A DNA stretch of 64,000 nucleotides from Elusimicrobiaceae bacterium (GTDB lineage: Bacteria > Elusimicrobiota > Elusimicrobia > Elusimicrobiales > Elusimicrobiaceae). The DNA lies in contig JAGCXL010000028.1 of the NCBI GenBank assembly GCA_017961295.1, forward strand, positions 1 through 64,000, read 5' to 3'. The stretch's first letter is position 1. The number at the start of each line of letters is the position of its first letter. Below the pieces are notes generated by a model. It was not told where the DNA came from. It did no database searches and worked only from the letters and a program-made list of their open reading frames with translations. Below are positions 35,383-52,101 of this stretch, in pieces. The position numbers and the translations under genes were made by a program.

Positions 35383-35412
35383 TAAATGTGGCAGGTTTTA
35401 TATAATATAAGT

Positions 35413-36915: not shown

Positions 36916-37218
36916 ATGTCTTTGAAGGATAAAATTGATTTGGAAAATAAAATTTTTGCACGGGCCGCGCATTTGCAAGTGCCGGTATATTCCAAATATG
37001 GGGGGCTTATTTCAACGGCAGAGGATTTGGAATTACAAACTATGTTGTACGTATATAATGCGCAATTCCAAGCAAAAAATTATCAGCAATTTTGCTCCCC
37101 AGCCGAAGCCTTGCAGGCACGCCAAAATTATAAAGTCCAACAGAAGAGCTTCGGGCGTGCACGTATTTATGGGAAAAAAGATCTTAAGTTTGAGTTGTTG
37201 TTAACGGAGGAAAAATGA
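36916..37218 (+). CDS. Small protein opening the particle-gene cluster, unknown
   Basis: A 100-residue, mildly basic, soluble protein without recognised family. GGGGG lies upstream of the ATG. Its stop overlaps the start of the small-terminase gene by four bases, so it belongs to the same transcript. By position it could be a regulator or a packaging accessory protein. No HTH or nuclease motif is visible. Confidence 0.7.
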   Translation: MSLKDKIDLENKIFARAAHLQVPVYSKYGGLISTAEDLELQTMLYVYNAQFQAKNYQQFCSPAEALQARQNYKVQQKSFGRARIYGKKDLKFELLLTEEK

Positions 37219-37625
37219 AAAAGATTTCTTATCGTTCTTCTTTTTGTGAAGAAGTATTACATTTCTTTGAAGGGGCCGCCTTTCACGTGACGGAAGTTCA
37301 AAAAAAAGACGGCGCTATTACTTTATTGGAAACAGCGGCTGAACTGCCCACCTTTGCGGCTTTTGCTAAAAAAATAGGAGTTACGTGTAAAGAGTTGCAG
37401 TATTGGGAAGAACAACACCCGGCCTTCAAATACGCCTGCGAACAAGCACGGGACCGGCAAGCTAATATCTTAATCCAAAATAGTTTACGCGGTAACTATG
37501 CGGCTTCTTTTGCGATATTTACGGCCAAGAATTTACTGGGTTGGAAAGACGGTAAAGAGAGTAAAGAAAATGTGCAAAACGCAGAAGCAGTGGTAGTGAG
37601 TTGGGAGCAGGAACATGCAGAATAA
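37215..37625 (+). CDS. Putative phage terminase small subunit
   Basis: A 136-residue protein. An HTH-like segment (PTFAAFAKKIGVTCKELQYWEEQHPAFKYA, quoted in parts: FAKKIGV, LQYWEEQ) is followed by ARDRQANILI and the closing AIFTAKNLLGWKD, a pattern typical of DNA-recognising small terminases. It lies directly before, and overlaps by 11 bases, the large subunit gene. It would choose DNA for packaging; what DNA it chooses in an element without replication genes is an open question. Confidence 0.82.
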   Translation: MKKISYRSSFCEEVLHFFEGAAFHVTEVQKKDGAITLLETAAELPTFAAFAKKIGVTCKELQYWEEQHPAFKYACEQARDRQANILIQNSLRGNYAASFAIFTAKNLLGWKDGKESKENVQNAEAVVVSWEQEHAE

Positions 37626-38934
37626 ATCGGTCATTAAAATTCCCTACGCGCCCCGGCCTGTGCAAAAAGAAATTCATAGTGCACTTGCTACGCATCGCTT
37701 TTGTGTGTTGGTTACACACCGTCAGTTGGGCAAAACCGTTTGTGCCGTCAACCATTTAATTCGCCAAGCCACTCAAAACCCGCAAACTTGTCCGCGTTAT
37801 TTTTACGTGGCACCCTTTTTAAAGCAAGCTAAACTGATTGCTTGGGATTATTTAAAACGCTATGCGCGCAAAATTCCAGGCGTTAAGTTTTTAGAAGGAG
37901 AGTTGTGCGTACAGTTTGCTTCCGGGGCGCGTATTTGGGTGTGTGGGGCGGATAATCCGGATGCGCTGCGCGGTACCTATGCCGACGGAGTTGTGTTGGA
38001 TGAGTATGCCCAAATTAAACCCGATGTATTTAATGAAATTATTCGCCCTATGCTTTTATCGCGTGAGGGCTGGGTTGTTTTTATGGGGACCCCAAAGGGC
38101 CAAAATGCCTTTTTTGAGTTGTTTAATAAAGCGCAAAAAAAAGCACAACAAGAACCGGGCTTGTGGTGGGTGGGGGTATATCGCGCGGATGAGTCCGGTG
38201 TGATTCCGGCCGCGGAACTTAAACGCCTGCAAGAAGAAACTCCGCCAGTTATTTACCGTCAAGAATATCTGTGTGATTTTACCGCTAGTGCGGAAAATAT
38301 TTTAATTCCGATTGATAGCATATTAGCCGCTTGTCAGCGTGCAATTGCCCCGTCGGATTATCGGTATGCTCCCAAAATTATGGGGGTGGATCCGGCCCGT
38401 TTTGGAGCGGATCGCAGTGTGATTTTTTGCCGTCAGGGAGTTCGTGCTTTGGAACCACTTAGTTTTGAGGGGCTTGATAATATGGTATTGGCCGCTCGGG
38501 TGGCGCATGAAATAGAACGTTTCCATCCGGATGCGGTATTTATTGATGCCGGTTGCGGAGGCGGAGTCATTGATCGGCTTAGACAGTTGGGGTATCGTCA
38601 AATTATGGAAGTGCCTTTTGGCGGACGGGCCAACAAACCGGAACAGTACGTTAATAAACGGGCTGAAATGTGGTACGAAATGGGACAATGGATTAAAACA
38701 GTGGGTGTATTGCCGCAATCTGCCGAGCTAAAAGCGGACTTGTGTCAGGTGCGTTACGATTATGATTTTCTCGGCCGCTTACGTTTGGAAAGCAAGGAAA
38801 AAATCAAGGAACGTACCGGCAAAAGCCCGGACTTGGCTGATGCGTTGGCGCTTACTTTTGCAGCCGCGGTGCGGGCAAAAAATCCAAATTGCGCTACGGC
38901 GGAATTTGCCCGCAGTGAGTATGAAGTTATTTAA
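37615..38934 (+). CDS. Phage terminase large subunit
   Basis: A 439-residue DNA-packaging motor. The ATPase half has a Walker A variant THRQLGKT (about 37-44), Walker B VVLDEYA (about 127), and a coupling motif VFMGTPKG. The nuclease half has GVDPARFGADRS and VFIDAGCGGG with the acidic residues of an RNase-H fold, and LADALALTFA near the end. All active-site residues expected by eye are present, so it seems intact. TerL is followed immediately by the promoter at 38939. Confidence 0.93.
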   Translation: MQNKSVIKIPYAPRPVQKEIHSALATHRFCVLVTHRQLGKTVCAVNHLIRQATQNPQTCPRYFYVAPFLKQAKLIAWDYLKRYARKIPGVKFLEGELCVQFASGARIWVCGADNPDALRGTYADGVVLDEYAQIKPDVFNEIIRPMLLSREGWVVFMGTPKGQNAFFELFNKAQKKAQQEPGLWWVGVYRADESGVIPAAELKRLQEETPPVIYRQEYLCDFTASAENILIPIDSILAACQRAIAPSDYRYAPKIMGVDPARFGADRSVIFCRQGVRALEPLSFEGLDNMVLAARVAHEIERFHPDAVFIDAGCGGGVIDRLRQLGYRQIMEVPFGGRANKPEQYVNKRAEMWYEMGQWIKTVGVLPQSAELKADLCQVRYDYDFLGRLRLESKEKIKERTGKSPDLADALALTFAAAVRAKNPNCATAEFARSEYEVI

Positions 38935-38938
38935 AATC

Positions 38939-38994
38939 TGGGTCCAAAATAGGTCTTTTTTATACTTGACAAAACTAACTTTATTTACTAATAT
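38939..38994 (+). promoter_or_regulatory. TAGG boxes and promoter of the capsid/tail genes
   Basis: TGGGTCC (38939-38945), four A, TAGGTCT (38950-38956), then TTGACA (38966-38971), a 17-base spacer and TAATAT (38989-38994). The transcript would begin near 39001 and open with an inverted repeat AAATAAACG (39006-39014)/CGTTTATTT (39040-39048). From the box to the first bases after TTGACA it is close to the element at 35025. Confidence 0.65.
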
Positions 38995-39048
38995 AATATT
39001 GTAATAAATAAACGTGCCCACCTAAAAAGCACATTTTCGCGTTTATTT

Positions 39049-39077
39049 AAAAATAAAAATCCGGCATATAAACGCCG
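39049..39077 (-). terminator. Terminator of small minus-strand gene
   Basis: On the minus strand CGGC..GCCG (39077-39074/39065-39062) is followed by GATTTTTATTTTT. It lies 23 bases after the stop of the 58-residue gene. Confidence 0.6.
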
Positions 39078-39100
39078 AAAAAACAAATAATAAGTTTTTC

Positions 39101-39277
39101 TTACAAGCTTGTAAACATAAAAGCGGCTAAAACAGCTGCTAACAATACTGTCAGTAAGTAAGAAACAATGCGTGCCGTTTTTTTACTACCCTTGGGCCAC
39201 ACCGCCCGGGTAATAATGTAAAACCCCGGTACGGCGAGTAAAATTACAAACAAAAAAATTAAGATAATTCCCGTCAT
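39101..39277 (-). CDS. 58-residue membrane protein (moron candidate)
   Basis: Starts at the ATG at 39277, which has GGAGG six bases upstream; the longer frame to 39316 has none. Two hydrophobic helices (about residues 2-24 and 36-56) flank a basic loop (WPKGSKKTAR). It is transcribed against the particle genes, between terL and the portal gene, with its own terminator, which is the usual layout of a phage moron. Function unknown; superinfection exclusion or membrane modification are possibilities. Confidence 0.65.
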   Translation of the reverse strand: MTGIILIFLFVILLAVPGFYIITRAVWPKGSKKTARIVSYLLTVLLAAVLAAFMFTSL

Positions 39278-39341
39278 ACCTACCTCCGTGTATGAGTATG
39301 ATAGTAAATTTTGCATCTTTTTGCATGAAAGGAAATTAGTT

Positions 39342-40844
39342 ATGAACTCAAAAGAACAAATAAATTCTTATCAAAAAAAATACGAAGCACTCAAACAAGC
39401 GCGTGCTCCCTGGGTGAGTACTTGGAAAGAATTGTCGACTTATTTGGCACCTACCCGCGGCTTGTTTGACGGGGAAACCCTCAATTCCGGCCGTCGGGTG
39501 GACCATAAAACTTTATTAGACAGCTCCGCCTCTTTGGCGGTGGGCGTGTTAGGAGCCGGGATGATGAGTGGGCTTACCAGCCCCTCGCGCAGTTGGTTTG
39601 ACTTAACTTTGCAGCCGACTGCGTTTAAAAAATTGCCCGGCGTCAGTGCGTGGTTATTAGACGTTAAAAAAGCATTAGAATCTGCTTTTGCCAAAAGTAA
39701 TGTGTATTCCGTTTTGCAAGCAGTCTACGAAGAAATTTCTGTTTTTGGTACAGCAGCTTTTTTAGTAGAAGAGGATTCAAAAGGAGGAATTTTTTGCCGT
39801 CCGTTTACAGCGGGGGAATATTTACTAGATGTAGATGGAAAAGGGCGTGTAAATACTTTTGGACGTGAATTTTTTATGAACGCGGCGCAGTTGGCGCGTG
39901 CCTTTGGAAAAGAAAATTTACCTACTCAAATAGTACAAGAATTGCAACAAGAGCGTTGCAATAATTTGTATGCAGTGCGGCATTTAATTTTTCCCAATCC
40001 CACTTTTAATGAGCACTACGCAGATTACAATCACTTTGCTTACAAATCTGTTTATTTTACAACCGACGGCACGTTGCTGCGTAGTGGGGGGTATCATGAG
40101 TTTCCGGTCATTGCGGCGCGTTGGGAAACGCGTACCAGCGCGGATATTTACGGCCGCGGACCGGGGTGGAAAGCGCTGGGAGACGTAAAAATGCTGCAGA
40201 AAATGCAGAAAACAAAATTGGTAGCTTTGGATAAGAATACCAATCCGCCCGTGATGGTTTCCGCCAGCGTGCAAGGGGAAGTCAACCTTTTGCCGGGCGG
40301 TATTACCCGTTGCAACAGTTTGACAGATGCCGCCGTTAAACCGGCTTACCAAGTGCAAGCTGATTTAACGGCTTTGGAAAGTGCCATGGAACAAGTGCGC
40401 CAGACAATTCGGTCGCAATTTTTTGCCGATGTATTTGTGATGCTTTCCGCCCAAGATATACCGAATATGACGGCTGCCGAAGTGGCCGAACGCCGGCAAG
40501 AAAAAATGCTTTTGTTGGGGCCGGTATTTGAGCGGCTTAAAAGTGAGCTTTTAGACCCGCTTATTGAACGTACGTATTATATTTTGTTGCGCCAAGGAGC
40601 GATTGCACCTGCTCCCGAAATTTTACAAGGTCTTGAAATGAACCCGACGTATATTTCTACCATTGCACAGGCCCAACGTGCCACCGCATTAGAGCCGTTA
40701 AGTCAAGCCGTAACTTTCGCGGAAAACCTCACGCAAGCAGCGCCGGCTTTGGCAGAACAAGTAGATTATTCGCGTGCACTTAGCGAAGGATTAGAAAGTT
40801 TGGGTATGGACGGAGTTTTACTCAAACAAGGAGTGCGTCCATGA
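39342..40844 (+). CDS. Podovirus-type portal (head-to-tail connector) protein
   Basis: A 500-residue protein of the T7 gp8 / head-to-tail connecting family. Recognised by the opening LKQARAPWVSTWKELSTYLAPTRGLFDG (shown here as key pieces: APWVSTW, YLAPTRG), GAGMMSGLTSPSRSWF, and the LLLGPVFERLKSELLDPLIERTYYIL block with AEVAERRQEKM before it. Twelve copies would form the DNA entry ring. The ATG at 39342 follows AAAGGA. Length matches the family. It begins the morphogenetic half of the cluster. Confidence 0.92.
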   Translation: MNSKEQINSYQKKYEALKQARAPWVSTWKELSTYLAPTRGLFDGETLNSGRRVDHKTLLDSSASLAVGVLGAGMMSGLTSPSRSWFDLTLQPTAFKKLPGVSAWLLDVKKALESAFAKSNVYSVLQAVYEEISVFGTAAFLVEEDSKGGIFCRPFTAGEYLLDVDGKGRVNTFGREFFMNAAQLARAFGKENLPTQIVQELQQERCNNLYAVRHLIFPNPTFNEHYADYNHFAYKSVYFTTDGTLLRSGGYHEFPVIAARWETRTSADIYGRGPGWKALGDVKMLQKMQKTKLVALDKNTNPPVMVSASVQGEVNLLPGGITRCNSLTDAAVKPAYQVQADLTALESAMEQVRQTIRSQFFADVFVMLSAQDIPNMTAAEVAERRQEKMLLLGPVFERLKSELLDPLIERTYYILLRQGAIAPAPEILQGLEMNPTYISTIAQAQRATALEPLSQAVTFAENLTQAAPALAEQVDYSRALSEGLESLGMDGVLLKQGVRP

Positions 40845-41143
40845 ACACACGCAAACTTAAAAAACGTAATTTGTGTGATTTGCAAACGGTGCTCAAAACA
40901 CCGCAAGGCCGACGGGTGCTATGGCGGGTTTTGCAAGCCGCTCAAGTGCGCCAACATGGCTTTGTGCCGGGGGATAGTTTGTCTACTTCTTTTCATTGCG
41001 GACAGCGTAGTATTGGGCTATTTTTGCTGGATGAAATAGAAGAAGCACAGCCGGGGGCTTATCAACAAATGCGCAGTGAATACATAGCGGAAATTAATTC
41101 TATACAAAACCAACTGACTACTCAGGAGGATGACCATGAGTGA
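40841..41143 (+). CDS. Bbp19-like phage protein
   Basis: A 100-residue protein with the pattern TPQGRRVLWRVLQ..FVPGDSLSTSFHCGQRSIGLFLLDEI, which matches the small family found after the portal gene in podoviruses related to Bordetella phage BPP-1 (Bbp19). It overlaps the portal stop by four bases and the scaffold start by eight. Role in the virion or assembly is not known to me. Confidence 0.75.
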   Translation: MNTRKLKKRNLCDLQTVLKTPQGRRVLWRVLQAAQVRQHGFVPGDSLSTSFHCGQRSIGLFLLDEIEEAQPGAYQQMRSEYIAEINSIQNQLTTQEDDHE

Positions 41144-41669
41144 AAAAATAAAAAACGATTTACAAATTAATGCTGCATCTAAAGAAGAGCAAGAAACTCC
41201 TTCTCAGATGCAAGCAAGCTTGGACCCGTATGCAGCTATTTCGCTGCCGGAAAATTCCTTATTAAGCAAGCCGCAGTTGGCCGCTTTTAAACAGGCGGCT
41301 ACCGAACTTAAACTGCCTGCAGAAGCGCTGGTAAAGTGGCTTTCTTACGAAGAAGAACGCCTACAATCTTGGCAACAGGAGAAAACATTCCAAAGACAAG
41401 AACAACTGGCCGGGTGGGCCGCTCAAACGCAAGAAGAATTCGGCCCCCGTTGGCAAGAGGAAGTTTCCAAAGCGGTGCGCGCCGCGGATGCATTTGGTGG
41501 CCCGCAACTACGTCAACTTTTAGAAGAAACGGGGCTAGGCAACCATCCGGTGATTGTCCGTACCTTTCGCGCGGTGGCTAAGTGTATTAGTGAAGATGTA
41601 ACTCCCGGCGGTGTTTCCCATACAACGACGGATAAAACTTTCACACAAGCTTTGTACGGAAAAAATTAA
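41136..41669 (+). CDS. Putative capsid scaffolding protein
   Basis: A 177-residue, Gln/Glu-rich, mostly helical protein between portal and capsid genes, where podoviruses place the scaffold. The end pattern LRQLLEETGLGNHPVIVRTF..AKCISED is typical of this group. I start at 41136 because AGGAGG at 41124-41129 gives it a normal spacing; the ATG at 41130 directly abuts that site. It should be absent from mature particles. Confidence 0.75.
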   Translation: MSEKIKNDLQINAASKEEQETPSQMQASLDPYAAISLPENSLLSKPQLAAFKQAATELKLPAEALVKWLSYEEERLQSWQQEKTFQRQEQLAGWAAQTQEEFGPRWQEEVSKAVRAADAFGGPQLRQLLEETGLGNHPVIVRTFRAVAKCISEDVTPGGVSHTTTDKTFTQALYGKN

Positions 41670-41680
41670 AGGAGAAATTT

Positions 41681-42658
41681 ATGGCAATTATTGCTGAAAA
41701 AAATTACAACTTAATTGACTATGCCAAACAGTTTGATCCGTCGGGCCAAGAGTTGGCCATTGCGGAAGTATTAAGTCAATCCAACGACATCATTGGCGAT
41801 GCGGTGGTACAAGAAAGTTCTTTAGATTCCGGGCATGAATACGCGGTGCGTACCGGAATCCCGGAAGGAACTTGGCGTCGGGCTTACCAAGGGATTGAGC
41901 CCGCTAAAGCTACTACTAAAGTAGTTGTGGAAAGCTATGGTACGTTATCGGCTTACTCGGTAGTAGATAAATTGGTGGCGGAAAAGGGCGGTCATGTGGA
42001 TGCGGTGCGCACGGGGCAGTCCCGTGCGATTATTGCCGGGATGTCCTCGTCTATGGCTTCTAATTTAATCTACGGAAATTCGGGTGCCACTCCGGAACGC
42101 TTTACCGGTTTGGCGGCTCGTTATAGTGCGCTTTCCGGGGCAGAATCTAGCCGCAACGTAGTAGACGGCGGCGGTACTACCAACGGTCAAAATTCGTCCA
42201 TTTATCTAGTCGTGTGGGACACGGACAAGGTATTTACGTTCTTCCCCAAAGGTTCCAAAGCGGGGATTCAACGGGTGGATTACGGGTTAGTCAATCACGT
42301 AGATGCTTCCGGCAACGAGTTCCCGGCCTACAAAGAATATTTTGAGTGGAAACTGGGGCTTGCCGTACAAGATTGGCGCTTTGCGGGGCGCATTTGCAAC
42401 ATTGATGTGACCAATGTCCCGTCAACGCTTATCGATAAGATGTGTGATTTGGAAAAAAAAATCCAAAGTTTATCTATGGGTAAACCCGTATGGTATATGA
42501 ACCGCACCGTTAAGGCGGCGCTGCGTAAATTAACTACCAACCGCAGCAATATCCAGTATACACCGGATCAAATTACGTCCAGACCTTTAATGACGTTTAA
42601 TGAAATTCCGGTACATATTTGTGATGCGATTCGCGACGATGAAGCCGTAGTGGCTTAA
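41681..42658 (+). CDS. Major capsid protein
   Basis: A 325-residue protein of the podovirus HK97-fold group related to phage BPP-1 Bbp17. Features include an N-terminal arm rich in acidic residues, SSLDSGHEYAVRTGIPEGTWRRAYQGI, and a C-terminal GKPVWYMNRTVKAALRKL..PVHICDAI block. AAAGGAG precedes the ATG. It is followed directly by a hairpin that would partly end transcription, consistent with high production of this protein. Confidence 0.9.
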   Translation: MAIIAEKNYNLIDYAKQFDPSGQELAIAEVLSQSNDIIGDAVVQESSLDSGHEYAVRTGIPEGTWRRAYQGIEPAKATTKVVVESYGTLSAYSVVDKLVAEKGGHVDAVRTGQSRAIIAGMSSSMASNLIYGNSGATPERFTGLAARYSALSGAESSRNVVDGGGTTNGQNSSIYLVVWDTDKVFTFFPKGSKAGIQRVDYGLVNHVDASGNEFPAYKEYFEWKLGLAVQDWRFAGRICNIDVTNVPSTLIDKMCDLEKKIQSLSMGKPVWYMNRTVKAALRKLTTNRSNIQYTPDQITSRPLMTFNEIPVHICDAIRDDEAVVA

Positions 42659-42667
42659 GCCGCCTAA

Positions 42668-42692
42668 GGGCGGGATTTTACCCGCCCGTTTA
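42668..42692 (+). terminator. Terminator after the capsid gene
   Basis: Stem GGGCGGG/CCCGCCC (42668-42674/42681-42687) followed by GTTTATTTT. Confidence 0.75.
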
Positions 42693-42711
42693 TTTTAAAT
42701 TAGGAGAATTT

Positions 42712-43101
42712 ATGTTACTTGATAAAACTACTATGTTTTCTGATGCACAAGCATTGCGCGCTACCGGAGCCGGTACCAACACCCTTGATCTTAAAGCCGC
42801 CGGTAATGCTGTTCCCGGCCGTTTGGTACTTATTGCCCATGCGGACACTGCTTTTGTGGGCGCTACACAAATAGTTTGTGCTTTGCAAACAAGCGATAAG
42901 GCGGACTTTTCCAGCGGAGTGGTTACGTTGGCAAGTGCTACCGTAAGCGGTACGCAGTTGGCAGATACCGAAAACAACCTCTTTGCCTTGGGTGTTCCGG
43001 CGGGTCTTAAGCGTTACTTGCGGATTTATTATACCGTAACCGGTACCGTAACTGCGGGTGCGATTTCCTGCTTTGTGGCAGATGTGGCGGATTTGCATTA
43101 A
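42712..43101 (+). CDS. Bbp16-like capsid cement protein
   Basis: A 129-residue beta-rich protein whose opening MLLDKTTMFSDAQAL and ATGAGTNTLDL match the Bbp16 family, which decorates and stabilises podovirus heads. TAGGAG lies upstream. Its position right after the capsid gene is the expected one. A second hairpin follows it. Confidence 0.85.
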   Translation: MLLDKTTMFSDAQALRATGAGTNTLDLKAAGNAVPGRLVLIAHADTAFVGATQIVCALQTSDKADFSSGVVTLASATVSGTQLADTENNLFALGVPAGLKRYLRIYYTVTGTVTAGAISCFVADVADLH

Positions 43102-43110
43102 TTTGTCCGC

Positions 43111-43145
43111 GCGGGCGTGGTGTTTAAGCGCCACGTCCGCAAAAA
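43111..43145 (+). terminator. Hairpin after the cement-protein gene
   Basis: GCGGGCGTGG/CCACGTCCGC (43111-43120/43131-43140) with one G-U pair in the plus-strand RNA. Only A-rich sequence follows, so it may protect an mRNA end more than terminate. Confidence 0.45.
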
Positions 43146-43284
43146 TGGCCTTATTAAAGCATAAAAAGCCATATCGGTATGGCGGGCGGGGGGAAAAGAT
43201 TGAAAATAGAGGCATTTTAGCCGAAAAGCGGGTGTTTTTAGGCTTAAATGATGTCTAAATAACCCATTTATCCCCAATAATTTT

Positions 43285-43611
43285 AAGATATCGACGTTAT
43301 ATCGACGAAAAAATATAATTTTATAACCTATTCCTGGTGAAAAGCAATGGAATCTTTTTTAATCGCAAAAGCAGATTTAAATTTGTTTTTAAAATTTAAT
43401 ATACAAATAAAAACACTTAAAATTTAAGTATTTTTAAAAATATATATAAAATTATAATTATTATAAAAATTGATTTAATAAATATATATTTAAATATAAA
43501 AATATTTTAATTTTAATTATTTTTAAATTTAGTATTAATAATAAAACAAGTATTTAAAATAAAAAATACTTAAAATACAATATAAATTTTTTTAAAATAT
43601 AAAAATTTGGA
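43285..43611. other. Very AT-rich block with 11-bp direct repeats
   Basis: The 43102-43617 gap has no credible gene. ATATCGACG occurs at 43288-43296 and 43299-43307, 11 bp apart, as two tandem binding sites would. From about 43375 to 43611 the sequence is almost only A and T with a few isolated G or C, quite unlike the flanking genes. It may be a protein-binding or promoter region, a melting or packaging site, or degenerated DNA. The next gene has its GGAG site at the right end of the block. Confidence 0.6.
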
Positions 43612-43617
43612 GTACTT

Positions 43618-44205
43618 ATGAACTCTCAAACTAGCATTTGTAATTTGGCATTAGCATATTTAGGTCAGCCACCTATTAGTTCCTTAGAGCAAGATAATGA
43701 ACAAGCTCGTTGGTTAAAATTGTTTTATAATCCGGTACGGGAGGAAGTCTTGCTTACCCATGATTGGGGCTTTGCCGCAGCCCAAAAAACGCTTACTTTG
43801 GTACAAAATCCAACCAGTTCGCAAGGGGAGTTTTTGTATAAATATCCTGCGGATGCGTTATTTATCCGCTGTATTTTTAGCCAAAATGCCCCACAGACGC
43901 CGGTTTCATTTGAGCAACGTTTTGATGTGGACCGGCACATGCGGCTGTTGTCTACACCGGCAGTACGGGCGGTGGCTCGCTATACCCGGCGTATTACGGA
44001 TGAAACGCAATATGATCCGGCGTTTGTAAAGTGTTTTGCCTTGGCCCTGGCATGTGATTGTGCCCTGGCGTTGACCGGGGATATTGATTTGTCGGCTCGG
44101 TTGCAGCAAAAATATACCCTTTGCCTGGAAGAAGCTAAACGGGCTAATATGACGGAAACCTGGGTGCGTTCCCCTCAAACGGATACCTTTAGTGAGGTGC
44201 GTTAA
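43618..44205 (+). CDS. Tail tubular protein A-like (gp11 family)
   Basis: A 195-residue protein. The opening TSICNLALAYLGQPPISSLEQD..ARWLKLFYNPVREEVL and the later FLYKYPADALFIR match the T7 gp11/tail-adaptor group that joins portal and nozzle in podoviruses. GGAG is nine bases upstream of the ATG. It is followed by the tail tubular B-like gene, the canonical order. Confidence 0.87.
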   Translation: MNSQTSICNLALAYLGQPPISSLEQDNEQARWLKLFYNPVREEVLLTHDWGFAAAQKTLTLVQNPTSSQGEFLYKYPADALFIRCIFSQNAPQTPVSFEQRFDVDRHMRLLSTPAVRAVARYTRRITDETQYDPAFVKCFALALACDCALALTGDIDLSARLQQKYTLCLEEAKRANMTETWVRSPQTDTFSEVR

Positions 44206-44206
44206 T

Positions 44207-46798
44207 ATGGTACTACGTCACTTACAACCGTCTTTTGTAGGGGGAGAAATTAGCCCTTCTTTACAAGCACGCGTAGATGCGTCGTCGTATAATACCTGGT
44301 TAAAGAATGCCCAAAATATGTTTGTGCACCCGCAAGGGGGGATTTCCAATCGTCCGGGGATGCAATATCAGGGAGCGGCCAAATATACAGACAAAAAGTG
44401 TCGGTTATTTTCTTTTTACATCAACGAAGAAGAATCTTACATCATAGAAGCAGGCGAATATTATTTCCGTTTTTATACGTCTAACGGAATTGTACTCAAT
44501 GCGCAGCAAACTCCGCTTGAGATTGTAACTCCCTACTCCGGCGCTGAAATTAAAAAGTTGCAAACGGCTCAATATAATCAAACGCTTTACTTCGCTCATC
44601 CAAATCATCCCTTACATCGGCTTGCATGCACGAACGTAGGTACGTTTACTTGGGAAGAAGTGCCTCTTAAGTATGGGCCCTTCCAACCGGCTAATACAGA
44701 TATAACTCGTAAAGTTCGGGTATATCCGCAAACGCAAACGGTAGAGTCGCAAGGGGTGGCCGCTCAAATGTCTTTTGAACCGGTGAATTATTCCAACCTC
44801 ATGGTATGGGCCTATTTTAATGGGACCTGTTTTTATGTGGCGGACGGATATGGGTTAAATTTAGCCGAAATTGTGTCTTTTTTCAATGAAGACTATGGGT
44901 CGCAGGGATTACAGGCTTCGCAGCAGGGAAATATTTTAACGATTTGTTCCGGCGCATCCGACGGGGGCGATTGGAACGGGGCTGTTTTTAAGTTGGAATA
45001 TCGCAGCCGTTTTATGGGAGATGCTGATTTTTCTGTTACGCAAACGCTTAGCGGGGGCGAAAATGCCGGCACACAAACGGTGGCAGAACCGGGTCGATAT
45101 ATTTTGGAAAGTTCTTTTTCAACTTTTACGCCGTCTGATGTGGGTAGCAAATTTTGTGTGGTGCATACAGTGGATGCCCAGCACGAGAGCGGTACGCTAG
45201 GGCGCGAAAGTGTTTCTGCCTCTATTAAATCCGGTAGCGATTGGACGCTGCGCACGGTGGGGAATTGGACCGGTACACTCGAAGTGGAAGTGTCGTCCGA
45301 TTTGGGGCTTACGTGGCGGACACTTAAAGTTCTTTCCCGGGTTAGCGGCGATGATAATTTTTATATAACTGGGAATTTAAATGATGCCGAAAATTTGTTT
45401 TATCTGCGGGTGCGTTCCTGTCAAATTTCCGGCGAAGCGGAGTATGAATTAGCGGCAGAATCTTTTATACAACGCGGGGTGCTTCACTTGCTTTCTTATG
45501 TGAGTGCCACCCAAATGGTAGCAGAGATAGAACGTCCCTTTGGGAGCGAAGAGTGGACTTCGCTTTGGGCACTAGGTAGTTTTAGCTCTGCCGCGGGATA
45601 CCCAAGCTGTGTGTTCTTTTTTCAAGAACGTTTAGGATTGGCAGGCACCCAAAGTGAAATGCAAACGTTGTGGTTTTCTAAGACGGGGAATTTAACCGAT
45701 TTCGGGCGGGCACGTGACGAACAACTTAGTACCGATGCGATGAGTGTTTGTTTAGGGGGCACGCAACTTAATGCCATTGAAAATGTGCTTGTGGCCAACC
45801 GGTTGCTTATTTTTACAACGGGAAGTGAATGGACGCTTACTTCGTCGGGGCCGCTTAGCTTGGATACATTGCAACTGGAACAACAAAGTCAACGTGGGGC
45901 CTATTTTACTACGCCTGTGTTAGCGGGCAATCACGCACTTTTTGTGCAGGCACGCGGTTCCAGTATACGTGATTTGGTCTATGATTACATGACTTCTTCT
46001 TATAGCGGGGATGATATTACACTACGGGCAAAACATTTGTTTTTTAGTCGCAAAGTGATTCAAATGGCTTACGCTCAGGAACCGGACCATCTGCTTTGGT
46101 GTGTGGCGGATGATGGGGCTTTGTTTAGTATTACCTACTTGCCGGAACAAGGGATTTACGCTTGGACACATCATCAAACACAAGGCAAAGTTCTAAGTGT
46201 GTGCGTACGTCCTTATCAGGGACAAGATGAAGTTTGGTTTTTAGTGCAGCGTGCGGGGGGAGTTTTTCTGGAGAAATTGGCTGTGCGCATGACTGATAAA
46301 ACCCCAGTTTCACAAGTGTTTTTAGATGGCAGTATATCCTATCAATTTCAAACGCCGCAAACGATAGTCAGCGGGTTATCGCATTTGGAAGGGCAGGACG
46401 TTTGTGCACTAGCCGACGGGAACGTGATTGCCGGATTAACGGTACAAAATAACTCCGTTACATTACCATACGCGGCTCAAATTGTTCACGTAGGGTTAAG
46501 TTATCAAAGTTGTCTGGGTACGTTACCCCTTAAAAGCGTACAGGTTCAAAAACATAGGATCGTCAATGTTCGTGTCAAAATGATAGATAGCCGGGGGGGA
46601 AAAATCGGGGTGGAGCAAGGTGCTTTAACGCCATTTGTACAACGTACCGACGAAAAATATAATACGGCCGTTGCTTTACAAACGGGGGAAATTTGTACAG
46701 CCTTGGCGTGTGCGCATCAGCCTACTCCTAATTTGCTTTTGGTACAAGAGGACCCGTTACCGCTTACGGTTTTATCTATTGAAGTACAAGCCGTTTAA
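44207..46798 (+). CDS. Tail tubular protein B-like / tail nozzle protein
   Basis: An 863-residue protein. The N-terminus VLRHLQPSFVGGEISPSLQARVD followed by GGISNRPGMQY is the hallmark of podovirus tail nozzle and stabilisation proteins; the middle is beta-rich and contains FFQERLGLAGTQSEMQTLWFSKTGNLTDF, also typical. I start at the ATG at 44207 with GAGGTG upstream; a GTG at 44192 lies inside the preceding gene. It would form the end of the short tail. Confidence 0.87.
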   Translation: MVLRHLQPSFVGGEISPSLQARVDASSYNTWLKNAQNMFVHPQGGISNRPGMQYQGAAKYTDKKCRLFSFYINEEESYIIEAGEYYFRFYTSNGIVLNAQQTPLEIVTPYSGAEIKKLQTAQYNQTLYFAHPNHPLHRLACTNVGTFTWEEVPLKYGPFQPANTDITRKVRVYPQTQTVESQGVAAQMSFEPVNYSNLMVWAYFNGTCFYVADGYGLNLAEIVSFFNEDYGSQGLQASQQGNILTICSGASDGGDWNGAVFKLEYRSRFMGDADFSVTQTLSGGENAGTQTVAEPGRYILESSFSTFTPSDVGSKFCVVHTVDAQHESGTLGRESVSASIKSGSDWTLRTVGNWTGTLEVEVSSDLGLTWRTLKVLSRVSGDDNFYITGNLNDAENLFYLRVRSCQISGEAEYELAAESFIQRGVLHLLSYVSATQMVAEIERPFGSEEWTSLWALGSFSSAAGYPSCVFFFQERLGLAGTQSEMQTLWFSKTGNLTDFGRARDEQLSTDAMSVCLGGTQLNAIENVLVANRLLIFTTGSEWTLTSSGPLSLDTLQLEQQSQRGAYFTTPVLAGNHALFVQARGSSIRDLVYDYMTSSYSGDDITLRAKHLFFSRKVIQMAYAQEPDHLLWCVADDGALFSITYLPEQGIYAWTHHQTQGKVLSVCVRPYQGQDEVWFLVQRAGGVFLEKLAVRMTDKTPVSQVFLDGSISYQFQTPQTIVSGLSHLEGQDVCALADGNVIAGLTVQNNSVTLPYAAQIVHVGLSYQSCLGTLPLKSVQVQKHRIVNVRVKMIDSRGGKIGVEQGALTPFVQRTDEKYNTAVALQTGEICTALACAHQPTPNLLLVQEDPLPLTVLSIEVQAV

Positions 46799-46800
46799 AA

Positions 46801-46827
46801 AGGGCTTTCGGTTTGCCCGAAAGCCCT
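46801..46827. terminator. Terminator between convergent genes
   Basis: Stem AGGGCTTTCGG/CCGAAAGCCCT (46801-46811/46817-46827). On the minus strand it is followed by TTTTT, serving the gene at 46838-47578; on the plus side it lies right after the tail gene. Confidence 0.8.
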
Positions 46828-46837
46828 AAGATAAGAT

Positions 46838-47578
46838 TTAATTACCAGCGGGGGGAGTCCAGCGGAAACTTTGCAGCATTTGTACGGCTTGATTTTGTAG
46901 GGTTTCGGTGCGTTGCGTAGATAGCGCTCCCACGTAATAAACCGTATCCGGGGAAGTCTGCAAAGCAGTAAGCCAAAAATAAATGAGTCCGCGGTTGGAA
47001 TAAGCTTCTCCCTGGGCTTGATAAGCGGGCATCCCGTTTATTTCTGTAAAATCGGAAGAAGTAATGCTTAAACGGCGTTGGGTTTGTGCTGTTTGCAAGC
47101 CGGCCTGAAATTCTTCTAACGGATGGGTATCCTGTATATTCGTTTGACGAAGGATACCTGCCATTAAAAAAGATTGAGGTTTTTTCCCGGATGCATCCTT
47201 TTTAAGCGCATTGGTATCCATCCCTACTTTCAGGTCCAATTCTTTCCAATGGATCCAATCGGAAAAGTCCATACCGTCATAAACGGTTAACTCAAAGGGG
47301 AAAGCGTTGTCTTTGTAAATTCTTTCTCCATAAACGGGTGCAGGGTTCTGTTTTGCCCGGGCTATTAATCCTTGGAAGGGGCTTAATACGGCGCGTACGC
47401 CCATCCACATTCCCAGGCCGATTATTCCCCCTAAGAGGATTGTACAGATACCGGCGGTAATAGCAGGGCCTTTATTGGAATGATTTCTAAAAATCAACCA
47501 ACCCAGTTTGAACAGTACAAAAAATACTGCAAACGCAACAAACAGTACAAATAACGCTGAAAGAATAAGTATTGTCAT
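46838..47578 (-). CDS. Membrane protein of unknown function inside the particle cluster
   Basis: A 246-residue protein with two N-terminal hydrophobic helices (about 2-27 and 40-63) and a C-terminal domain outside the membrane (PVYGERIYKDNAFPFELTVYDGM.. and VYYVGALST). TATAAT (47590-47585) ends six bases before the ATG at 47578, the same leaderless signature as host genes; the frame to 47695 is therefore not used. It runs against the tail genes and interrupts them, so it is a host-derived moron candidate expressed independently. Confidence 0.75.
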   Translation of the reverse strand: MTILILSALFVLFVAFAVFFVLFKLGWLIFRNHSNKGPAITAGICTILLGGIIGLGMWMGVRAVLSPFQGLIARAKQNPAPVYGERIYKDNAFPFELTVYDGMDFSDWIHWKELDLKVGMDTNALKKDASGKKPQSFLMAGILRQTNIQDTHPLEEFQAGLQTAQTQRRLSITSSDFTEINGMPAYQAQGEAYSNRGLIYFWLTALQTSPDTVYYVGALSTQRTETLQNQAVQMLQSFRWTPPAGN

Positions 47579-47614
47579 AAGCATATTATAGCTTTTTAAA
47601 TGAAGGAGAATCAT

Positions 47615-48091
47615 ATGATTGAAATAGGAAAAAATTTTTTGTCTGGGCTTGCACGTGTCCAACAAAGTTACCGGACACAAAAACAAAAATATCAATTGCT
47701 AGCTGGGCAAGCGGCACAGCAGGCTGAAGATTTACGTCACACGCACGAAGATAAAATGAATTATTTGTTTCGTTCTTCCAGTGAAAAATTACGTGAAGCT
47801 TACGCGCAAGCCCGGGCGGCCTTGGCGGCTCGGCAAGCTACGCGTGCTGCCCATGGAATCAGTGAGGCTTCCGGTTCCTCCGTGGAAGATAAAAAAACCG
47901 TACAGCTTAATCAGAATTTGCAAGCGCGCCGTGCTCAACAAGATTTACAGAACGCTGCTGCTCAACAAGAAAAAACCTTTAAAGAAAAGTGGGCGGCTTT
48001 GTGGCAAGCGGTTAAGCAGTACCGTGTAAAATCGCGTAAAAACGGGCGGTGGGGAAGTGTAGGCCAAGCTGTTACATCATTATTTAAATAA
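47615..48091 (+). CDS. Particle protein, possible internal virion protein
   Basis: A 158-residue, Gln/Ala-rich, basic, helical protein with long coiled-coil stretches (residues 15-130) and a short basic end. Placed between tail nozzle and tail fibre genes, where podoviruses encode internal core or ejection proteins (T7 gp14 position). The assignment rests on position and composition only. AAGGAG precedes the ATG at 47615. Confidence 0.6.
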   Translation: MIEIGKNFLSGLARVQQSYRTQKQKYQLLAGQAAQQAEDLRHTHEDKMNYLFRSSSEKLREAYAQARAALAARQATRAAHGISEASGSSVEDKKTVQLNQNLQARRAQQDLQNAAAQQEKTFKEKWAALWQAVKQYRVKSRKNGRWGSVGQAVTSLFK

Positions 48092-48105
48092 GGAGAATAA
48101 TTGTT

Positions 48106-49254
48106 ATGAGTATTTCATCATTAATTTGTAAAAGAACTTATCATGCCGACGGAGAAAGACGGGAATGGGAAATTGATTTCCCCGTTTTATCGGCCCAAGA
48201 TGTGGTTATATATGTGACGGATCCGCAAGGTGCGGAAAGTAAAATTACGGATAATTATGAAGTTAATTTGGAACGGGAAGTGGTAGTATATCCGTTAATT
48301 AGTAGTGGTGTATCCCCGTTGGCAACTGGTTATACGATTACACTTTTGCGTACGACGCCGTATACACAGGGAATCAATCTTACTCAACAAGGTACGCTGG
48401 ATGCGGAAGAATTAGAGGCCGGATTTGATAGATTAACTTTACAAATCCAGGAATTGGCCGAGCAACTTAAACGCAGTATTAAATATGCGGTTTCTTCCAT
48501 TAATACCGACGTGGATGCACAAACTTTTTTAAACGAATTGCAGGCGACCCAAACCGCTGCTTTAAATACAGCTTTAGCAAGTGTAGAGCAAACTAAAACT
48601 ACCTTGCAACAAGCGTTGGCAACGGAACAAACACAACGTTCGCAAGCAGACTTGTCTTTACAACAAAATTTGCAGATGCTTGCCGGTACGGCGGCGCAAC
48701 AAGAGGCTGCGCAAACAAGTGCTTTATCCTCCGAAGCCAGTACACGCAGCGTCGCCGATACGGCTTTGGAAAGTGCGCTTAGTGCAGAAACAACCGCCCG
48801 GTTAAATGGAGATGCTGCCTTGCAACAAGCCATTGAACAGTTAAATTTTATTACCTTTGTGGTAGGGTTGCCCGCGTCGGGTAACTCTAAATATATTTAT
48901 GCCGTTCCACAGGAAGAAACCGATCTTGATGACCATCCCATTGTAGTTCTATATTTATGGGATACTACCTTGCAGTCCTGGAACGCGATAGGTGCTTTTA
49001 GTACCAATTTAGATCCGGCTACACTACTTACTAAGACAGAAGCAGCCAATACGTATCTTACACAAACTGCGGCCGTAAATACCTACTTACCTTTGGCGCA
49101 AAAAGCGGTAGCGGGTGGAGTAGCTAGTTTGGATGCTAATGGGAAATTGGCATCCACGCAAATACCCTATGCCACTTCTAATACGATTGGCGGAATTAAA
49201 CAAAGTTTTGATTCTACAACTGGCACGTGGATCGTCGTAACCGAGGACCTATAG
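48106..49254 (+). CDS. T7-like tail fibre protein
   Basis: A 382-residue protein. Residues 1-125 match the T7 tail-fibre N-terminal domain that docks to the tail (KRTYHADGERREWEIDFPVLS, TDNYEVN..); a helical coiled stem rich in Ala/Gln/Thr follows (about 130-255), then a compact C-terminal part with repeated NTYLT/NTYLP motifs. TAAGGAG precedes the ATG. It would form the shaft of a receptor-binding fibre completed by the next gene product. Confidence 0.87.
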   Translation: MSISSLICKRTYHADGERREWEIDFPVLSAQDVVIYVTDPQGAESKITDNYEVNLEREVVVYPLISSGVSPLATGYTITLLRTTPYTQGINLTQQGTLDAEELEAGFDRLTLQIQELAEQLKRSIKYAVSSINTDVDAQTFLNELQATQTAALNTALASVEQTKTTLQQALATEQTQRSQADLSLQQNLQMLAGTAAQQEAAQTSALSSEASTRSVADTALESALSAETTARLNGDAALQQAIEQLNFITFVVGLPASGNSKYIYAVPQEETDLDDHPIVVLYLWDTTLQSWNAIGAFSTNLDPATLLTKTEAANTYLTQTAAVNTYLPLAQKAVAGGVASLDANGKLASTQIPYATSNTIGGIKQSFDSTTGTWIVVTEDL

Positions 49255-49263
49255 GGGGTATTT

Positions 49264-50478
49264 ATGGCCTTATATCACAGCGCAAGAGGTTCAGTAAACT
49301 ACACCATAGTAGGCAACCCGACTATTGTGGACGGAGTGGCGAGCGGATTTAGTAGTAGTGATTATGTCACCGTAACACCTTTTTCTGCTTTAGCGACGGA
49401 TGAAGTAGTAGAAAAAATTACTTTTACAACGGGTACTATTAGCGGTAATCAATGGATATTAGGGCGTTCACAAAATAGTGTCCTTCTCGGCGTGTATATA
49501 AATTCTTCGGGAAAATTGCGAATACCCTTTATTGAAAACAATGGAAGCGCAATAAGTTGTAATTTAGACTATGTATTATCCGCAAACACTTCTTACTCGG
49601 TTATTGTCGTTAGAAGCACAAACGGTACTTTGACTTCTACGCTTTACGATAATCAAGAAACCGTTTTAGATACGGCTTCAACAACTGCCCAATATGCTTT
49701 TACAGGAACAGGTAACATCTTTTTAGGGGTTACTGCGAGTGGTGGACACGGAAATTCTTTTGATGGTTCCATAGACCTCAACCACACCTACATTAAAGTA
49801 AACGGTCAACCCTGGTTTGGTATCTGCCCCATAGAGGTACAAAAGCACCAGTTAATGGGTCCCGTGGGGTATGAAGAAGTAGGAAGCCCTACGATTACCG
49901 ATGGAGTGCTAATCAGTCCTACTGATAAGCAAAACACGATTAAGACCTCGCAGGTATTAAATGTAGGAGATAGCTCCTGGGAAATGCAGTTTAAAGTGCT
50001 TAATCCAACTGTAAAGGGGTGTGCTTTATTCCGCGTAAATGGTAACACTAATACAAGGTGTACTTTCTCATCAACAAACACTTTCAACTTGTACCCAGAC
50101 TACCAAAGTGATAGTAGCGTAGTATTGCGTGCTCTTGAAAATTTTTGGTCAAATGCAGTAGATAATCAAGCTCCCGTTGTATACCTTAAAATATCCTGTA
50201 TCGGTAAGGTGGATAACTCATATCCGTTCATATTTGCAGCGTCATTAGACGGAAATTCGTGGACTACGCAACAAATAATTTCGTCGGTTCCTCTAGCGAG
50301 CGGGGCTATCTCATACTGTTCTTCTTATAACTCATACCAAACGGGAACAAGTGTAGGTTATGATTTGGACCTCAACGAAACCTACATCAAAGTAAACGGC
50401 AAGCTATGGTTTTGGCAACCGCAATCTACAAAGAAAATATACGTAGATAATATCCGGGTATGGGAGAAATCAACATGA
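49264..50478 (+). CDS. Receptor-binding fibre tip with two jelly-roll-like repeats
   Basis: A 404-residue beta-rich protein. The two halves are homologous: each has VGNPTIVDG/VGSPTITDG near its start and IDLNHTYIKVNGQPWF/LDLNETYIKVNGKLWF at its end, so an internal duplication is clear. The fold resembles LamG/concanavalin-type carbohydrate-binding modules. GGGGG is upstream. It likely contacts a cell-surface glycan. Its end overlaps the next start (ATGA). Confidence 0.72.
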   Translation: MALYHSARGSVNYTIVGNPTIVDGVASGFSSSDYVTVTPFSALATDEVVEKITFTTGTISGNQWILGRSQNSVLLGVYINSSGKLRIPFIENNGSAISCNLDYVLSANTSYSVIVVRSTNGTLTSTLYDNQETVLDTASTTAQYAFTGTGNIFLGVTASGGHGNSFDGSIDLNHTYIKVNGQPWFGICPIEVQKHQLMGPVGYEEVGSPTITDGVLISPTDKQNTIKTSQVLNVGDSSWEMQFKVLNPTVKGCALFRVNGNTNTRCTFSSTNTFNLYPDYQSDSSVVLRALENFWSNAVDNQAPVVYLKISCIGKVDNSYPFIFAASLDGNSWTTQQIISSVPLASGAISYCSSYNSYQTGTSVGYDLDLNETYIKVNGKLWFWQPQSTKKIYVDNIRVWEKST

Positions 50479-50669
50479 TCAATGTGGAGCTAATTTGGAA
50501 GATACTGGGGTTAGTTTTTGCGTGTGGGGTGGTATGGGCCAAATTGGAGGCTATCCAAAAAGATATTGCCCGTTTAGAAAAAAAACAGGATAAATATAAC
50601 AATCTGCAAGAACGTACACGCGTGCTGGAAGTGAAATTGGAAAACCATTTAATCCGGGAGGAAAAATGA
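50475..50669 (+). CDS. Small membrane/coiled-coil protein of the lysis cassette
   Basis: A 64-residue protein with an N-terminal hydrophobic helix (about 4-22) and a charged coiled coil (23-64, EAIQKDIARLEKKQDKY). The shape suits a holin-like or spanin-like lysis protein or an XhlA-type membrane recruiter. It starts at the ATG overlapping the fibre stop (50475) and overlaps the lysozyme start by four bases. Confidence 0.65.
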   Translation: MINVELIWKILGLVFACGVVWAKLEAIQKDIARLEKKQDKYNNLQERTRVLEVKLENHLIREEK

Positions 50670-51079
50670 AAGAAAAATGGATTCAATATATACGGTTTTA
50701 TGAGGGCTTGCGCACTAAACCGTACATTTGTCCGGCGGGGCATTTAACAATAGGTTATGGACATAATTTAGAAAACGGTATAAGTCAACAAGCTGCAGAA
50801 TTTATCTTGCAAGAAGATTTACAAATTGCCCAAAATACGGTGCAGCAAAAATTTGCATGGTGGAGAGAATTGAACGAAGTACGCCGGTTTGTATTGGTGG
50901 ATATGGCTTTTAATATGGGGATAAACAAACTGGCAACTTTCAAAAAAATGTTAGCAGCTGCGGAAAAGGGGGATTATACGACCGCTGCTCGCGAAATGTT
51001 GGACAGCCGCTGGGCCGTACAGGTGGGGCGGCGTGCTAGGGAACTAGCCGAAATGATGAAAAAAGGAGAATATGTATGA
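50666..51079 (+). CDS. Phage lysozyme (glycoside hydrolase 24)
   Basis: A 137-residue muramidase that would cut the host cell wall. The motif E13-GLRTKPYI-C22-PAGHL-T28 matches the T4-type E-x8-D-x5-T catalytic triad but with Cys in place of Asp; GYGHN follows, and WRELNEVRRFVLVDMAFNMG is conserved later. Cys at that place is known in some phage lysozymes such as P1 Lyz, so the enzyme may be active. It has no N-terminal signal or SAR helix, so release would depend on a holin. Confidence 0.9.
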   Translation: MKEKWIQYIRFYEGLRTKPYICPAGHLTIGYGHNLENGISQQAAEFILQEDLQIAQNTVQQKFAWWRELNEVRRFVLVDMAFNMGINKLATFKKMLAAAEKGDYTTAAREMLDSRWAVQVGRRARELAEMMKKGEYV

Positions 51080-51270
51080 TTAAGTTTATTACGCAACATT
51101 ATGATGAAGTATTACAAATTATAGGAGCGGTGGTTGCTTTGGCTACGCTGGTTGTAAAATTGACGCCAACCCAAAAAGATGACAACGCGCTTAGCAAAAT
51201 TATTCAAGTACTTAGTGCTTTAAGTTTATGTAATGCCGACGGGTCCTTCATCGGCAGAAAGGAGCACTAA
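51076..51270 (+). CDS. Holin-like small membrane protein
   Basis: A 64-residue protein with one hydrophobic helix (about 11-30) and a short polar tail, starting in the lysozyme stop (ATGA) behind AAAGGAG. Size and position fit a holin or antiholin. No sequence family recognised. Confidence 0.6.
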   Translation: MIKFITQHYDEVLQIIGAVVALATLVVKLTPTQKDDNALSKIIQVLSALSLCNADGSFIGRKEH

Positions 51271-51497
51271 TGTACGGATTATGTGGGGGAGTATTGTTCT
51301 TTTTGGGGATTTTGTTATTCGTGGTAGTGTTGCTGGCAAGTAAAAACGGAAGTAAAGCGGCCCGGTTAGAGGCTTTGAAAACAGAGCTTAAAAAACAAGA
51401 AAAGGAACAAATGCATGCTAAACAAATTAGGGATAAAGTGTATCATTTGTCTACTGATGATGCTAAGCGCAGGTTGCACCAAATTGCAAGTAAGTAA
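51270..51497 (+). CDS. Rz-like inner-membrane spanin
   Basis: A 75-residue protein with an N-terminal membrane anchor (about 5-24) followed by a Lys/Glu-rich coiled coil, the i-spanin layout. It shares one base with the preceding stop (TAATG) and contains the start of the Rz1-like gene in the +1 frame. With it the pair would fuse the two membranes at the end of lysis. Confidence 0.75.
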   Translation: MYGLCGGVLFFLGILLFVVVLLASKNGSKAARLEALKTELKKQEKEQMHAKQIRDKVYHLSTDDAKRRLHQIASK

Positions 51498-51612
51498 CGC
51501 AAGTGCCTGCCAAGTGCCTTTTGATTACGCAGATGAGGGTGTAAATGAGCAAAATACACGGGCCCTTTTAATGTATTACTGTATTTGCGAAGATGAAAAA
51601 GTATGCCAATAA
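51415..51612 (+). CDS. Rz1-like outer-membrane lipoprotein spanin
   Basis: A 65-residue lipoprotein: hydrophobic signal with lipobox LSAGC (Cys21), then a short mature chain. It starts inside the Rz-like gene in another frame (83-base overlap) and runs past it, the partly overlapping Rz/Rz1 layout. The mature part is Cys-containing (YYCICEDEKVC) and lacks the Pro-rich look of classic Rz1. AAGGA lies upstream. Confidence 0.75.
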   Translation: MLNKLGIKCIICLLMMLSAGCTKLQVSNASACQVPFDYADEGVNEQNTRALLMYYCICEDEKVCQ

Positions 51613-51660: not shown

Positions 51661-52101
51661 TTAAAAACCATTAACTTTGTCTGCTCCGCCCGCGATAGCA
51701 TAGCAGAAGTTTTTGCCATCGTCACCTTCGCCGCTACAGGAACGCGTTTCAGTGTACGCGCCATTGGACTCGGCAATTTCAGTTTTCAATGTATATAGTC
51801 CGGTTGTGCGCGTAGCGGTAATAGTACCCCCAGAAAAAGTGACACAGAAATTCTTGCCACCATGGTCACAAGTGGCACCGGCGGGAATATCTACATCTAA
51901 TTGATTGAAAGTTGTAGGCCAGTCCTCATGCTGTGCGTGATAGCGTTCTATGGCTCCCGCCATGGCACTCATTTGGGTAAGAGCTTCCGTGGCGCGGGAA
52001 CGTTCCACTGCCGTTTGATATTGCGGTAATGCGACGGCAGCTAAAATACCAATAATCAGTACAACGACAAGTAATTCAATTAAGGTAAAACCTTTGTTCA
52101 T
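51661..52101 (-). CDS. Type IV pilin-like protein
   Basis: A 146-residue prepilin beginning [20 protein letters not shown] with Glu5, then [18 protein letters not shown]. The head has four Cys ([12 protein letters not shown] and [16 protein letters not shown]), suggesting two disulfides around two similar DGGKNFC-like turns. AAAGGAG precedes the ATG and TATACT lies about 45 bases upstream. It is next to the particle cluster but on the opposite strand and has host-type features. Confidence 0.92.

Follow-up and report, generated by a model that had tools for sequence, protein, structure and literature searches.

A vertically inherited podovirus-type particle module in Candidatus Avelusimicrobium: a candidate gene transfer agent

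Results

A particle module with its own candidate regulator

The 64,000-nucleotide stretch of DNA analysed here, termed the window, is part of a metagenome-assembled genome (MAG; G000, 66.65% complete) whose genus appears to be Candidatus Avelusimicrobium, of the Elusimicrobiota. From 36916 to 51612 it carries a short-tailed phage particle module: 18 plus-strand open reading frames (ORFs), none interrupted, which run from packaging through head and tail to lysis in the order given by a preliminary description of the DNA, and whose families are recovered by profile searches (PHROG, Pfam) across the module. Comparison with related genomes, presented below, supports well the view that the module is a domesticated phage, inherited vertically as a fixed chromosomal system. 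The same description gave the plus-strand genes as tightly packed; the run is not unbroken: two conserved minus-strand genes, m71 (39101-39277) and m285 (46838-47578), lie inside it and the interval 43102-43617 looks non-coding.

The module begins with g1 (36916-37218), for a conserved 100-aa protein present at 19 module loci and not in the related "sister" phages described below. Next come the small and large terminase subunits, TerS (37215-37625; phrog_3064 5e-19, PF16677 weak) and TerL (37615-38934; phrog_2 2e-54); the Walker A/B and acidic nuclease residues of TerL show no variation across 38-42 relatives, so that the intactness first claimed for these motifs is borne out. Beyond m71, which specifies a two-transmembrane protein of about 59 aa found at 58 module loci and in no phages, lies the portal gene (39342-40844), of the BPP-1 Bbp21 type (phrog_332 1e-121; 36.5% identity to Bbp21 of BPP-1). 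Its ORF opens with a GTG at 39288 and the true start is probably 39342; internal stops in portal matches, considered as signs of decay, were dismissed as lying upstream of that start. The head genes encode a Bbp19-like protein (40841-41143; phrog_528 5e-18), a scaffold-like protein (41130-41669; phrog_458 6e-27), the 325-aa major capsid protein (41681-42658; phrog_212 4e-62; 39% identity to the BcepC6B major head protein) and a Bbp16-like, cement-type protein with a homologue in the sister phages (42712-43101; phrog_427 5e-22).

Tail tubular proteins A (43618-44205; phrog_394 1e-42) and B (44192-46798; phrog_376 5e-173; 44 of 45 copies intact) are followed by m285, which encodes a membrane-anchored protein, occurs at 35 module loci and in no phages, and separates the tail from the core genes. 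A core-like protein of 163 aa (47600-48091), recognised by position and by conservation within the clade, occupies the internal virion protein position; a tail fibre with a podovirus N-terminal domain (48106-49254; phrog_1640, phrog_13893) and a hypervariable fibre tip (49264-50478) come next. Between G000 and its nearest relative, G017, the tip is only 39% identical and the adjoining fibre gene 88%. The lysis end comprises a small membrane protein (50460-50669), a phage lysozyme/endolysin (50666-51079; Pfam Phage_lysozyme 8e-19, phrog_7 1e-26), a second small membrane protein, conserved at 29 loci, which from its inferred role is a probable holin (51076-51270; phrog_9685), and a pair of Rz-like and Rz1-like spanins in overlapping frames (51270-51612; phrog_1026), Rz1 being identified by its lipoprotein signal and nesting.

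The downstream edge is a minus-strand type IV pilin-like host gene (51661-52101), which borders the module there in most species and is likewise present in a related genome, G061, whose site is module-free. Stand-alone pilin-like genes are very numerous and scattered (at 1814, 10783, 15294 and 51661 in the window, with many in another contig, L279), and several adjoin the module. Upstream, a DcuC-family transporter gene (35386-36801, plus strand; Pfam DcuC 5e-99) is probably a host rather than a particle gene; G061 has retained it at its module-free site, and several species lack it at this position.

This transporter gene lies between g1 and a minus-strand gene (34315-35001) for an S24 (LexA/CI-like) repressor with a helix-turn-helix domain (Pfam Peptidase_S24 3e-13, HTH_3), the probable regulator of the module. 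The repressor gene adjoins g1 upstream, or with only DcuC between, in 16-17 species, and its product is homologous to the repressor of a sister phage, L090 (hidden Markov model match 2.6e-20; phrog_4). Beside it is plus-strand promoter P1 (35027-35081), in which an operator-like sequence, GGTCCAAAATAGGCC, precedes TTGACA-18-TATACT (11 of 12 promoter positions matched, TG before the -10). Ahead of the portal gene is plus-strand promoter P2 (38941-38994), where the same operator, GGTCCAAAATAGGTC, precedes TTGACA-17-TAATAT. The two copies of GGTCCAAAATAGGYC (35027 and 38941), each 10 bp ahead of a TTGACA promoter, are the only exact matches to this 15-mer within the 64 kb. P1 is conserved in G017, G055 and G026, and P2 in G017, G037, G040, G009 and, more weakly, G026; six close species keep one or both operator copies, and G061 has none at its module-free site. 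The operator was rejected as a genus-wide promoter motif, since outside the window clade it was found in just one species. We infer that the pair are predicted sites of the S24 repressor, which probably controls the module beside which it lies.

Phage relatives carry the mobility genes that the module lacks

The preliminary description had noted neither integrase nor replication genes, and no flanking att repeats; both observations stand. Profiles for tyrosine recombinase and phage replication initiator gave no match in the module, nor at any other module locus or its flanks, and the same profiles detect both in sister phages. The module is not flanked by att-like direct repeats: the longest one found was tried as an att site and discarded, because it is the internal operator/promoter pair.

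The closest relatives are prophages that two genomes carry besides the module (G050:C2 and G007:C9) and rumen contigs in IMG/VR, with portal and capsid identities of 51-56% and 61-69%. Unlike the module, these phages have an integrase and/or a replication initiator as well as large ejection proteins. The initiator (phrog_270) was found at nine phage loci and integrases in three prophage neighbourhoods, the G050 and G007 prophages each having a tyrosine recombinase no more than about 20 kb away. Integrase and replication genes beside structural genes, the mark of an active temperate phage, were seen at no module locus. A fully supported long branch splits phages from modules, and the viral collection, when scanned, yielded no module copies, its matches all belonging to the phage clade or to phages more distant still (capsid at most 67%). 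TerS of the module and TerS of the sister phages are not homologous at E<=1e-3, and the TerL proteins of the two are only 26-29% identical; the packaging motor has thus been exchanged, that of the module having come from elsewhere, and the nearest TerL is from uncultured phages (47%). A further phage-like locus, L091 (G026:C4), matches the module at 59% in a TerL-type gene and at just 32% in portal, so a relative of this TerL may be circulating among other phages in the genus.

The most similar isolates, at 36-40% identity in portal and capsid, are BPP-1, BcepC6B and Caulobacter podovirus-type phages. The module shares its order of genes and its protein families with BPP-1, BcepC6B and epsilon15/phiV10-type podoviruses, but BPP-1-type phages are full genomes of about 40 kb with integration and replication genes, whereas the module is about 15 kb without them.

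The module has diversified with its hosts

Candidatus Avelusimicrobium comprises uncultured animal-gut bacteria. The capsid gene is present in 62 of its 66 species, with a single module copy in each, and in 34 of the 36 genomes that are at least 90% complete; the portal gene gives the same distribution within the genus, and outside it just distant matches (22-30%). Gene order within the module is conserved across the genus. Flanks are common to members of a clade and rearranged in blocks between clades, and shared neighbour genes link the 23 genomes with long flanks into one connected set. A type IV pilus ATPase gene (PF00437) is found about 10 kb away from the module in the clade of G016, G057 and G044. 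Close relatives were searched for integrase-bearing copies at variable sites, which had been named at the outset as evidence that would speak against immobility; none was found.

Trees built with FastTree for the module and for rpoB (35 species) have 18 of 32 splits in common, as against a mean of 0.2 and a maximum of 2 in shuffles, and portal distances track rpoB distances closely (r=0.92). The window genome was excluded from the tree comparison because its rpoB contig groups with another clade, probably through contamination. It has two overlapping rpoB fragments, on contigs C33 and C35; the C35 copy falls in a different clade, and the MAG is therefore probably chimaeric there.

Selection maintains the particle genes

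Ratios of non-synonymous to synonymous substitution (dN/dS), pooled pairwise over close pairs by the Nei-Gojobori method in a custom script, were 0.023 for capsid, 0.084 for TerL, 0.084 for portal, 0.109 for tail tube B, 0.136 for TerS and 0.279 for scaffold, the fastest-evolving of the head genes; m71 gave 0.20. Every module gene tested is under purifying selection. Each of the 61 capsid copies examined has 325 aa, breaks are very rare in TerL, portal and tail tube B, and capsid diverges about as slowly as RpoB (amino-acid distances of 0.112 and 0.093). Capsid and terminase genes, which tailocins have lost, are present here and are the most constrained.

The module was initially called complete, slightly too strong a word: packaging, head, tail and lysis genes are there, but the window clade lacks the large ejection proteins seen in the sister phages and has the 163-aa protein in their place. 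Other clades retain homologues of IVP152 and IVP200 at this position. The window clade has a lysozyme as its endolysin, and others have another type of enzyme (M15-like by eye); as the family has been swapped between clades while the small holin-like gene is kept, lysis itself is maintained. In many species two to eight secreted proteins (360-480 aa) are encoded as a tandem array between TerL and portal, for example in G063, G064, G028 (L044/L217, L081, L072/L220) and L280, with GExH...YAGxGH-like motifs. By eye they resemble ChaN/Tiki hydrolases, and the one tested had no Pfam match. That this cargo might be hidden phage early genes was rejected, the genes being those of the tandem secreted proteins.

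A natural deletion accompanied by loss of competence genes

G061 (93% complete), in the window clade by rpoB, offers a natural deletion. Its syntenic site reads HydF-DcuC-m71-m285-pilin-tRNA, all phage genes and the repressor being gone; a second contig (L279) carries the whole module-side flank, which disposes of a contig break after frr as the reason for the absence. Because m71 and m285 (59% identity) are retained there, both are separable from the particle and are probably host genes.

Competence genes are near-universal in the genus. ComEC is absent from G061 alone among the 66 genomes, a deaminase gene following recR where relatives have comEC, and the comM-dprA pair is cleanly gone from between flanking genes that relatives share. 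None of the 66 lacks ComEC and has the module. In Rhodobacter, recipients of the gene transfer agent (GTA) RcGTA use ComEC, ComM and DprA for DNA uptake and integration (PMC10883770).

Discussion

A GTA has been defined by six features: particle proteins derived from a caudoviricete, full endogenisation, mostly vertical inheritance with host co-diversification, packaging of mostly random host DNA, packaging of its own genome not at all or not fully (owing to a small head), and delivery of DNA (PMC9662315). Judged from genes, three of these are found here and the other three call for experiments. The PHROG and Pfam matches and the identity to BPP-1-type phages indicate a caudoviricete ancestor; conserved chromosomal neighbourhoods, with neither integrase nor free viral copies found, indicate full endogenisation; and the shared tree splits and correlated distances indicate mostly vertical inheritance. 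The module is best read as an independently domesticated particle that probably works like a GTA, packaging and delivery being the inferred part, and its most likely service to the bacteria would be to carry fragments of their DNA from one cell to another. We favour, by a smaller measure of confidence, the fuller proposal of an independent podovirus-derived GTA, ancestral to and near-universal in the genus, that forms one functional unit with the uptake and recombination genes, such that losing uptake leads to discarding the particle.

The preliminary description had left open whether this immobile factory was GTA-like or a prophage remnant, and proposed that conservation and dN/dS be compared. 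That comparison supports the former and excludes the latter, because of the single copy in 62 of 66 species, the shared neighbourhoods, the co-diversification with rpoB and the strong purifying selection. The lack of integration and replication genes, and the four species that have lost or broken the module, are what a decaying fixed prophage would show; yet decay should bring relaxed selection and truncated genes, and the uniform capsid length, the intact TerL, portal and tail tube B almost everywhere and dN/dS of 0.02-0.28 refute it for the genus as a whole. The module does decay or vanish where selection is lost (G056, G012, G061). An ordinary temperate phage moving among species, its integration and replication genes lying elsewhere, might be suggested by the integrase-bearing prophages of the same genus, but is strongly disfavoured by the single copies, the host-congruent tree, the long separating branch and the want of free copies in the viral collection.

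Two further explanations accept domestication, and both seem unlikely. The particle may be a weapon or bacteriocin against related bacteria, any packaged host DNA being a by-product; PBSX of Bacillus subtilis is such a tailed killing particle, of ancestry different from that of the module. PBSX is an immobile phage-like particle that is reported to package chromosomal fragments of about 13 kb (PMC12946183). A hypervariable fibre tip on an otherwise conserved particle is as expected for changing targets, and maintained lysis also suits a weapon, but the genes most constrained are those for capsid, portal and terminase, which a tail-only weapon would not need, and killing does not predict co-loss with comEC, comM and dprA. 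Alternatively, a few cells may be lysed in a programmed way to release DNA, perhaps protected by capsids, for competent sisters to take up, tails being dispensable. Conservation of lysis despite gene exchange, near-universal competence genes lost with the module in G061, and the reduction of large ejection proteins in the window clade would all agree with this. The tail tube proteins are nonetheless intact and under purifying selection, so that attachment and delivery seem still to be selected.

Several points weigh against the module being a GTA. All the genomes are MAGs, one per species, and the case for a particle, packaged DNA and transfer is drawn from genes. Four well-supported module splits contradict the rpoB tree. 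The low-carbon (cheap protein) signature of alphaproteobacterial GTAs was not seen in comparison with sister phages, some genes tending in the opposite direction. BPP-1-type phage heads hold about 40 kb; a 15-kb module might therefore fit whole, unlike the case of classical GTAs, and the ancestral T=7 head could be big enough for it. Co-loss was seen just once, in G061 (P=0.015 counting clean losses only, 0.06 with all four module-negative genomes), and G056 and G012, in which module genes are broken or lost, retain comEC and dprA, a pattern expected of non-producing recipients but also if module and uptake are unlinked.

The module most likely goes back to a BPP-1-type podovirus whose genes for particle, packaging and lysis were acquired by the ancestor of Candidatus Avelusimicrobium or earlier, those for integration and replication being lost. 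If it is a GTA, relief of the S24-type repressor, probably by DNA damage, would fire the two promoters that share the operator; a few cells would assemble short-tailed heads, into which TerS and TerL would load host chromosome; lysozyme, holin and spanins would free the particles; and relatives would take up the DNA and integrate it via ComEC, ComM and DprA. By such steps of induction, packaging, release and uptake the module would work like a GTA.

The closest parallel is FpGTA of Faecalibacterium, a podovirus-like GTA described in 2026, whose 40-nm particles were shown experimentally to contain about 9 kb of DNA (PMC12946183). Like the module it belongs to a gut anaerobe and consists of genus-wide TerS, TerL, portal, scaffold, capsid, short-tail and lysis genes, without replication or integration functions; it differs in having two loci, one missing in some strains, whereas the module is one locus, in another phylum and from a BPP-1-type ancestor. 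The likeness is drawn from the published description of FpGTA and from the gene content of the module. RcGTA and the other alphaproteobacterial type I GTAs (Rhodogtaviriformidae) are likewise structural clusters without replication or integration genes that co-diversify with their hosts (PMC9662315), but are siphovirus-like, have a different ancestor and bear the low-carbon signature. The novelty first claimed for a podovirus-type GTA consequently shrinks to its phylum: FpGTA is a precedent, the module would be the second such lineage, and no GTA report for the Elusimicrobiota was found in the literature searched, which did not extend to preprints and most subscription papers.

Known GTAs are few and mostly from Alphaproteobacteria. 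If our reading is correct, the module adds a phylum without a reported GTA and a second podovirus-like lineage, and a genus of 66 species would allow GTA gain, maintenance and loss to be followed. The G061 deletion, with its loss of comEC, comM and dprA, makes testable the old question of whether production is kept because kin use the DNA. Livestock and rumen bacteria of a large, uncultured group would then own a dedicated device for gene exchange.

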